Shown here: in pieces, positions 2,915 to 33,788 of the stretch | Position numbering within the stretch: position 1 is the first letter of the stretch | Layout of the letters: each line of letters starts with the position of its first letter | Assembly (NCBI GenBank): GCA_019237945.1 | Contig: JAFAOG010000410.1 | Location: 1-33,790, forward strand | From: Deltaproteobacteria bacterium | GTDB taxonomy: Bacteria > Myxococcota_A > Polyangia > Haliangiales > Haliangiaceae | DNA: 33,790 bases | Direction of reading: 5' to 3' | Notes under the pieces: generated by a model | Seen by the model: the letters and a program-made list of their open reading frames with translations, nothing else | Databases searched by the model: none | Told to the model about the DNA's origin: nothing | Made by a program: the position numbers and the translations under genes

Positions 2915-3346
2915 TTACTTCAGGCGGATCGGATACTCGAGCTCGCTCTTCGCATCGGCGGCCGGGAATGCCCAGCGCCGCGCGCAGTCCGACAGGCAGC
3001 TGACGGCAGCGTCGGGCGCGTCGCCCGCGATCGCGAGGTCGGCGACCTTGCCGGTCGGCTCGATCGAGAACTTGAGGACGGCAGTTCCGGCGACGCGCTG
3101 CGAAGGCGGCAGGCGATCCCAGCAGTACGCGACCTCTTCGCCGCGCGCCTTGACGACCGCGGCGACCTGCGCGAGCGACAGCATCTTCGGCTTCGCGGTC
3201 TCGCTGTCCTTCGGCAGCTGCTTCTTGTGCTCGCGCTGCGGCAGGTCGTACGCCTGGCCGAGCTTGAGGTTGACGGGGCCCTGGTCGGCCGCCGCGGGGG
3301 CGACCAGCGCCAGGAGGACGGCGGCAGCGAGGATGGGCTTGGACAT
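2915..3346 (-). CDS. Secreted protein with AgmX/PglI C-terminal (TonB-like) type domain
   Basis: MSKPILAAAVLLALVAPAAADQ signal peptide; VAYCWDRLPPSQRVAGTAVLKFSIEPTGKVADLAIAGDAPDAAVSCLSDCARRWAFPA pattern. Confidence 0.7.
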   Translation of the reverse strand: MSKPILAAAVLLALVAPAAADQGPVNLKLGQAYDLPQREHKKQLPKDSETAKPKMLSLAQVAAVVKARGEEVAYCWDRLPPSQRVAGTAVLKFSIEPTGKVADLAIAGDAPDAAVSCLSDCARRWAFPAADAKSELEYPIRLK

Positions 3347-20551: not shown

Positions 20552-21147
20552 TCCGCCACGGCAAGGTCTACAACCCCGACAACATTCGCTACGGGCGTGC
20601 GCCCGGGTTTCATCTGTCGGACCTCGGTCGCGCGCAGGCGAAGGCGGCCGGGCAGTTCATGAAGACGCAGGCGCCGCTCGTCGCCCTCATCAGCTCGCCG
20701 CTCGAACGTGCCGCCGAGACGGCGGCGATCATCGCGGGCGAGATCGGATTCGCGACGCCGGTGCCGACCGACGAGCGGCTGCTCGAGTCGCTCAACCGGT
20801 TCGACGGCCTGCACCGCTACGCGGTCCTGCAGCCGTGGCGATGGCCAAAGCTGTGGAACCCGTTCGCGCCGTCGTGGGGCGAGTCGTTCAAGCAGATCGC
20901 CGCGCGCATGCGATCGGTGATCGAGGAGCGGCGCGTGGCCGGGGCGGCGATCGCCCTCGTCTCGCATCAGGCGCCGATCTGGATCGCGCGCCAGTCGTAC
21001 GAGGCACCGGGCCGCGTGCCGTGGCTCGCGCGGCGCGGCGTGCGGTGCACGCAGGCATCGGTGACGACGCTGCGCTTCGAGGGCGATCGCTACCTCGGCC
21101 ACACGTACTGGGCGCCGCCCGACGACGTGCAGCCATCCGTGACCTAG
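20530..21147 (+). CDS. Histidine phosphatase (phosphoglycerate mutase-like) family protein
   Basis: HLIRHGKVYNP, ISSPLERAAETAAIIA, LVSHQAPI. Confidence 0.85.
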   Translation: MESLVHLIRHGKVYNPDNIRYGRAPGFHLSDLGRAQAKAAGQFMKTQAPLVALISSPLERAAETAAIIAGEIGFATPVPTDERLLESLNRFDGLHRYAVLQPWRWPKLWNPFAPSWGESFKQIAARMRSVIEERRVAGAAIALVSHQAPIWIARQSYEAPGRVPWLARRGVRCTQASVTTLRFEGDRYLGHTYWAPPDDVQPSVT

Positions 21148-21479
21148 CGGCCGCGGATCTGGTTCCACGCGTCGGCCGCCGCGCCACCGACCCAGCCGAG
21201 CCCCGCGCCGGCCGCCGCGCCGACGGTCGCGCCCGTCGCGCCGCCGAGCATCGCGCCCGCGTAGCCGCCGCCGACGGTGCCCGCACCGGGGATCACGGCC
21301 GTGCCCGCCGCGCCGAGGACGCCCGCGCCCGCGAGTGCACCCGCGGTTCCACCGGCGGCGCCGCCGAGCGCTCCGCCGGCCGCTGCGTAGCGGTTGCCGT
21401 TGTCGACCATGCGGTTGAGGTCGAAGCCGCCGTTGACGTCCTGGAGCTGCGTGATGTCGATCGTGGTGAAGTTGTGCAT
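21144..21479 (-). CDS. Double-glycine-leader, Gly/Ala-rich peptide; class II bacteriocin-like candidate
   Basis: MHNFTTIDITQLQDVNGG leader followed by GxxxG-rich 93-aa core; SD AGGAG about 9 nt upstream. Confidence 0.7.
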   Translation of the reverse strand: MHNFTTIDITQLQDVNGGFDLNRMVDNGNRYAAAGGALGGAAGGTAGALAGAGVLGAAGTAVIPGAGTVGGGYAGAMLGGATGATVGAAAGAGLGWVGGAAADAWNQIRGR

Positions 21480-21574
21480 GTGGTTGTCTCCTGTGTCCCG
21501 CTCCTTGTGCAGCGGATGTGCCGCGCGTAGCTGCGCGAAACCACGCAGCGCGGGTCGCATGCGACGTCGCAGCC

Positions 21575-21593
21575 GGTTTCCAGATTGGAAACC
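21575..21593. promoter_or_regulatory. Perfect 8+3+8 dyad upstream of the GG-leader gene (operator or argC terminator)
   Basis: GGTTTCCA-GAT-TGGAAACC; further palindromes GTCGCATGCGAC (21554-21565) and GCGACGTCGC (21561-21570). Confidence 0.45.
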
Positions 21594-33065: not shown

Positions 33066-33071
33066 AGTCTA
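33066..33071 (-). promoter_or_regulatory. -10 TAGACT overlapping EGF-protein stop, 6 nt before GTG 33059
   Basis: TAGACT-gatcgc-GTG. Confidence 0.6.
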
Positions 33072-33788
33072 GCGGCGCCGGCGGCGCAACACGAGCGCGA
33101 CCACGCCGAGCAGCGCGAACGAGCCGCGCGAACCGGCACCGTTCGAGTCGCAGCCGCAGCCGCCGGCCTGCGAGGTCGCCGTGCACGTCTTGCCATCGCC
33201 CTTGAAGCCGTCCGGGCACGTGCAGGTGAATCCGCCCGTCGTGTTCGTGCACGTCGCGTTCGGATCGCAGCCGGCGGCGCCGGTCGCGCACTCGTCGACA
33301 TCGGCGCACGCGTGGCCGTCACCGGCGAAGCCGTTGTTGCAGGTGCACGTGATCGCACCGCCGGCCGCCGAGCAGGTCGCGTTCGCGTCGCAGCCGCCGT
33401 TCGCGTTCGTGCAGTCGGCGGTGCACGTGACGCCATCGCCGGTGTAGCCGGCGTTGCAGGCGCAGCTGTGCGAGCCCGGCGTGTTCGTGCAGGTCGCGTT
33501 GGTGTCACAGCCGCCGTTGTTCGTGAGGCACTCGTTGATGTCGGTGCACGTGACGCCATCGCCGGTGAAGCCGGCGTTGCAGGCGCAGGTGTTCGAGCCC
33601 GGCGTGTTCGTGCACGTCGCGTTGGTGTCGCACCCGCCGTTGTTCGTGAGGCACTCGTTGACGTCGGTGCACGTCAGACCGTTGCCGGTGTAGCCGCTGT
33701 TGCAGGAGCACGTGTTCGAGCCCGGCGTGTTCGTGCAGGTCGCGTGGGTGTCGCAGCCGCCGTTGTTCGTCAGGCACTCGTTGACGTC
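33069..33788 (-). CDS. EGF-like repeat protein with MYXO-CTERM-like C-terminus (N-terminus outside window)
   Basis: Frame lacking ATG so absent from ORF track: DVNECLTNNGGCDTHATCTNTPGSNTCSCNSGYTGNGLTCT repeated; tail GGCGCDSNGAGSRGSFALLGVVALVLRRRRR*. Confidence 0.88.
   Translation of the reverse strand, partial: DVNECLTNNGGCDTHATCTNTPGSNTCSCNSGYTGNGLTCTDVNECLTNNGGCDTNATCTNTPGSNTCACNAGFTGDGVTCTDINECLTNNGGCDTNATCTNTPGSHSCACNAGYTGDGVTCTADCTNANGGCDANATCSAAGGAITCTCNNGFAGDGHACADVDECATGAAGCDPNATCTNTTGGFTCTCPDGFKGDGKTCTATSQAGGCGCDSNGAGSRGSFALLGVVALVLRRRRR

Follow-up and report, generated by a model that had tools for sequence, protein, structure and literature searches.

The described systems closest to the locus analysed here export small peptides behind a double-glycine (GG) leader. 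Published sequence criteria for Cdz-like peptides, drawn up with the Cdz system of Caulobacter (CdzC/CdzD, CdzI, CdzAB), comprise a length of 60–151 aa, a leader ending in G[GAS], glycine zippers (one or two) flanked by Pro or charged residues but free of them inside, and a short polar C-terminus (PMC5380434). A Cdz-like system would further have type I secretion genes within ~10 kb, a small immunity protein of the membrane close by, and contact-dependent killing. Class II microcins of the microcin V type combine a GG leader, a precursor of 75–120 aa and a Gly-rich hydrophobic core with a route through a C39-ABC exporter, an adaptor and a TolC-like channel (PMC9746304). In the pneumococcal ComAB/BlpAB pool, one exporter processes GG peptides of several loci; C39-ABC exporters of this kind (PCATs) recognise leader positions -15, -12, -7 and -4 (PMC7018657).

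We analysed a 33,790-nt stretch of DNA (the window) from a member of the Haliangiaceae, Myxococcota (contig JAFAOG010000410.1), in which an original prediction had pointed out an orphan GG-leader peptide. This peptide has all four Cdz-like features: 111 aa, a leader ending in LQDVNGG, two zippers and the C-terminus DAWNQIRGR. By the published criteria it resembles the Cdz peptides in size, leader, zippers, polar C-terminus and predicted type I export, and some loci of the zipper family likewise combine a peptide pair with a small membrane protein. It differs in that the window locus lacks an exporter and an immunity gene, in its sigma-54-type promoter, in belonging to the Myxococcota, and in that one exporter would here serve many dispersed genes. 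The class II microcin architecture recurs in leader, precursor length, core and export route, and two siblings weakly match Pfam MccV; however, the window gene has no adjacent cognate immunity gene, scores below the family cut-off, comes from another phylum and is unlinked to the export genes. Leader architecture is also shared with the Bacteriocin_IIc (PF10439) and ComC (PF03047) families, and the same four recognition positions with the pneumococcal pool, which is Gram-positive and not under sigma-54. The individual elements are all of known kinds. Our literature search found no report from Myxococcota in which scattered zipper peptides are linked, through leader and sigma-54-type promoter, to a C39 exporter encoded elsewhere; such an arrangement may still be known.

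The window gene and its relatives

The gene lies on the minus strand, with its ATG at 21479 and its stop codon ending at 21144, and encodes an 18-aa leader and a 93-aa core, just as the original prediction had described it. Its features are as follows.

21144–21479, minus strand: GG-leader glycine-zipper precursor peptide, 111 aa (from the ORF and homologues)
21426–21479, minus strand: leader MHNFTTIDITQLQDVNGG, 18 aa, F-15 I-12 L-7 V-4 GG (recognition positions from PMC7018657)
21147–21425, minus strand: 93-aa core with a glycine-zipper stretch on either side of P65, a polar/charged C-terminus (DAWNQIRGR) and neither Cys nor Ser
21487–21492, minus strand: Shine-Dalgarno sequence AGGAGA
21508–21523, minus strand: sigma-54-type promoter CGGCACATCCGCTGCA (GG-N10-GC), 29 nt upstream of the ATG (consensus from PMC7910581)
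21575–21593, minus strand: inverted repeat GGTTTCCA-ATC-TGGAAACC, a possible activator site

The longest mechanical ORF spans 372 aa from a GTG within argC; we assigned the start to 21479 because the Shine-Dalgarno sequence, which had been judged good, the homologues and the promoter all agree. argC precedes the peptide gene by 125 nt on the same strand, and a histidine-phosphatase gene meets it end to end on the opposite strand. As had been noted, neither a C39 exporter nor an immunity gene is adjacent, nor is any small membrane-protein gene. Elsewhere in the window, positions 33069–33788 (minus strand) encode a bacterial protein of five EGF / calcium-binding EGF repeats that runs off the window end.

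At the four PCAT-recognition positions the leader carries hydrophobic residues (F-15, I-12, L-7 and V-4, counted from the GG cut), and the core begins at FDLNR directly after MHNFTTIDITQLQDVNGG. Scored with a matrix built only from 21 leaders adjoining C39-ABC exporters, the ORF reaches 23.8 bits, a value attained by none of 200,000 random 40-mers; the next best of the 232 window ORFs scores 9.2. Codon-position GC (0.76/0.64/0.93) matches real genes of the same genome. Synonymous exceeds nonsynonymous change between the window gene and its nearest homologue (pS 0.35, pN 0.23), and the excess is far stronger in a tandem pair of a relative (0.37 versus 0.06). Leader score, homologues and this excess confirm that the ORF is a real gene and not a chance reading frame.

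The same leader is found on homologues in 9 of the family's 32 genomes, in two genera, with identities of 66% and 44% in relatives; among 245 genomes of the class, a profile search at E 1e-7 found none outside that family. A scan across genome contigs added one locus only, evidently the contig of G003. Around the nearest homologue no gene order is conserved apart from the peptide itself. Loss of the GG leader in homologues would have spoken against the original prediction; they keep it (consensus FxTIDxxxLDDVTGG), and between loci the core is far more variable than the leader.

The core contains 14 GxxxG pairs, compared with 7.8 expected from shuffles of its own composition (p=0.003), and nine consecutive Gly residues at spacing 4 (p=0.0004). 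The GxxxG excess is present in all 11 other family members tested, and homologues conserve the Gly phasing. The zipper stretches cover residues 32–64 and 66–102, the second ended by D103. An AlphaFold model of the peptide has low confidence (pLDDT 58). A comparison with GG-leader family models gave Bacteriocin_IIc as the best Pfam match (E 0.0025), at 18.2 bits below the 27.1 cut-off, so that the protein is not a PF10439 member by the curated rule; an NCBIfam scan returned nothing, and no family model was reached at its curated cut-off. Across 12 family members, nine match Bacteriocin_IIc (best E 7.7e-6), five ComC and two MccV.

Remote exporters, sibling peptides and immunity candidates

Three C39 domains are encoded in the genome. 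Two belong to complete C39-TMD-ABC exporters, one on contig C433 and one on C121, with HlyD adaptors and the catalytic Cys, His and Asp; no type I secretion genes were seen around the window gene itself. The C433 cluster (type A) comprises the exporter, HlyD, a TolC-like protein (OEP), an FHA-sigma54 activator and three GG peptides; its gene order is conserved in G001, G003, G014, G016, G020 and G024 and in part in others. The C121 cluster contains a C39-ABC exporter, HlyD, a LanB dehydratase and a single GG peptide whose leader is similar. Its locus (L004 6014–16418) holds a GG peptide, GAF-HlyD fusion, C39-ABC exporter, HlyD and full-length LanB (N and C domains), with a kinase-like gene after LanB; similar sets occur in several relatives.

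The genome thus holds the GG leader, C39-ABC exporter and adaptor expected of a class II microcin system. Its lack of a C39 transporter had been named as a result that would count against the peptide; the search found the opposite. Because both full exporters have intact Cys, His and Asp and adjoin GG peptides, and because the window peptide has the leader type of exporter-adjacent peptides, the processing in trans suggested earlier is well supported, and the leader would be cleaved by a remote C39-ABC exporter. The assembly is fragmented (632 contigs, 4.9% contamination), so placing peptide and exporter in one genome depends on binning.

Of nine genomes with a type-A exporter, seven encode leader-bearing zipper peptides, compared with 2 of 23 that lack this exporter (p=3e-4, in a test that ignores phylogeny); the two exceptions, G002 and G005, contain other parts of the same cluster. 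Within the window's genus alone the association is weaker (p=0.06). Only the type-A cluster correlates: the presence of any C39-ABC exporter shows no significant correlation (p=0.11). In none of the loci read does a zipper-type peptide lie directly beside a PCAT; PCAT-adjacent peptides are of a different, Met-rich type. These Met-rich GG peptides (L005 2728–3662, L110 16565–17589, L116 17082–18359, L119 2269–3191, L126 17060–17884) have Met runs up to MMMMMMMM, a 'SIKSLA'-like helix and often Gly-rich tails, with two or three per cluster. Next to a LanB/C39 cluster of G030 (L102 10277–11334) lie three small GG peptides whose cores are acidic or contain Cys.

A search for sibling GG peptides, proposed in the original prediction, identified two zipper siblings in the same genome, each at a contig end (C404 and C385). 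Following the first sibling, an ORF that starts MRAAAKTELLHYALIGAAAIPVA is cut off by the broken contig end; at the other broken end a hydrophobic tail, GGEPTVLVFCVIAAVLTGLSRKRF, precedes the second sibling. Both ends match the peptide – small membrane protein – peptide arrangement that is intact in G020, suggesting that the two contigs may adjoin. In the loci of five relatives, the zipper gene is immediately followed by an ORF of 63–74 aa with one TM segment or two; these ORFs are placed as immunity genes are, and are putative immunity genes on that basis. Beside the window gene there is no immunity candidate, and a search with the putative immunity protein of one relative found no convincing copy in the window's genome. 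Tandem zipper-peptide pairs occur in G009 and G020; in G009 (L129, 2403 onward) the two GG zipper peptides differ, and the second leader ends LSHVCGG.

A sigma-54-type element before the zipper genes

The region upstream of the gene had been described as structured, and it does hold the inverted repeat at 21575–21593. More telling is CGGCACATCCGCTGCA, which has the -24 GG and -12 GC at the 10-nt spacing of a predicted sigma-54 promoter (consensus TGGCACG-N4-TTGCW; PMC7910581) and from which transcription would begin a short way upstream of the Shine-Dalgarno sequence. Taken singly, the window element is equalled by 3 of 200 shuffles. Among 18 family members, 15 reach 18.5 of 21.5, compared with 26 of 3600 dinucleotide shuffles; a looser score of 18 is reached by 53 of 511 other control genes, several of the best in the exporter clusters themselves. 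rpoN is present in the genome. Positions 2915–3346 of the window (minus strand) encode a probably secreted 143-aa protein with no Pfam match and a strong sigma-54-type element 13 nt upstream.

The pattern was first spotted by eye in ~20 upstream regions and later scored with the published consensus. Independent support comes from exporter operons and leading peptide genes of other clusters, which had not been viewed beforehand: the element precedes both divergent halves of the type-A cluster, the HlyD-PCAT operon as well as the OEP operon, and also the leading peptide gene in the exporter clusters of G003, G014, G016 and G020. In the C433 cluster, the first peptide gene lacks it (score 15.5). 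The activator encoded in the exporter cluster is a natural candidate regulator of the zipper genes.

Proposed function and alternative readings

With moderate confidence, we favour the view that the gene encodes an unmodified Cdz-like or class II microcin-like bacteriocin precursor, exported in trans, co-regulated by sigma-54 and presumably used to kill neighbours. Sigma-54, probably together with the FHA-type activator of the exporter cluster, would drive synthesis of the precursor together with its dispersed sibling GG peptides. An exporter encoded elsewhere, most likely that of C433, would recognise the leader and cut after Gly18, and the 93-aa core would be released or displayed through the HlyD adaptor and the TolC-like channel. 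The glycine-zipper core may then pack as helices in the membranes of susceptible neighbours and damage them, like CdzC/D or microcin V. The sequence itself establishes the gene, its leader and zipper phasing, its relatives, an exporter with catalytic residues and the enrichment of the promoter; cleavage in trans, the exporter and activator involved, and antibacterial action are inferred from these. The original reading as a bacteriocin-like peptide is supported by leader, homologues and exporters, although the window protein itself stays below every curated cut-off.

Since no immunity gene adjoins the window copy, the main competing reading is a peptide exported by the same exporter under the same sigma-54 switch that does not kill and instead serves as a signal, surface-coat or adhesion/amyloid peptide in swarming, predation or development. 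GG peptides are numerous in each genome and their cores fall into several types, developmental and social genes of myxobacteria are commonly controlled by sigma-54 (PMC9765219, PMC7910581), and glycine-zipper proteins can form surface aggregates (PMC5380434), all of which would suit such a role. We nevertheless consider it rather unlikely, given the small membrane proteins after the zipper genes in five relatives' loci, the bacteriocin nature of the models matched and the far greater divergence of core than of leader among loci.

A Gly/Ala-rich, helical core would also suit a glycine-zipper membrane protein that stays uncleaved in the envelope of the producer itself and resembles a GG-leader peptide by coincidence. 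Some family members weakly match Rick_17kDa_Anti and Gly-zipper_Omp, and leaderless glycine-rich proteins that match exist in relatives (G008:C872). The window protein, however, matches no glycine-zipper envelope family, Bacteriocin_IIc being its only match, below cut-off, and its leader is common to exporter-adjacent peptides and conserved across homologues, which makes the envelope reading improbable. More improbable still is a RiPP precursor that the LanB dehydratase of C121 would modify: that cluster does combine a full LanB and a C39-ABC exporter with a GG peptide of similar leader, but the co-occurrence is with the type-A cluster, where no dehydratase was found. A lanthipeptide was rejected, since a core with no Ser, no Cys and few Thr allows no lanthionine.

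We tentatively propose, at somewhat less than even confidence, a hub-and-spoke arsenal in this myxobacterial lineage. One C39 exporter cluster controlled by a sigma-54/FHA activator would serve GG peptides that form a large set, dispersed and fast-changing, and include single and paired zipper toxins, its activator switching pump and cargo on together. Gram-negative GG-peptide bacteriocins are known from few groups and have usually been found by searching beside an exporter, whereas here the cargo genes are remote from the exporter, and leader and promoter connect them with it. A search that combines leader and sigma-54 promoter would expose a hidden GG-peptide set in Myxococcota, and such a set would make it possible to test how one exporter serves many cargos and how a producer is protected without an adjacent immunity gene.
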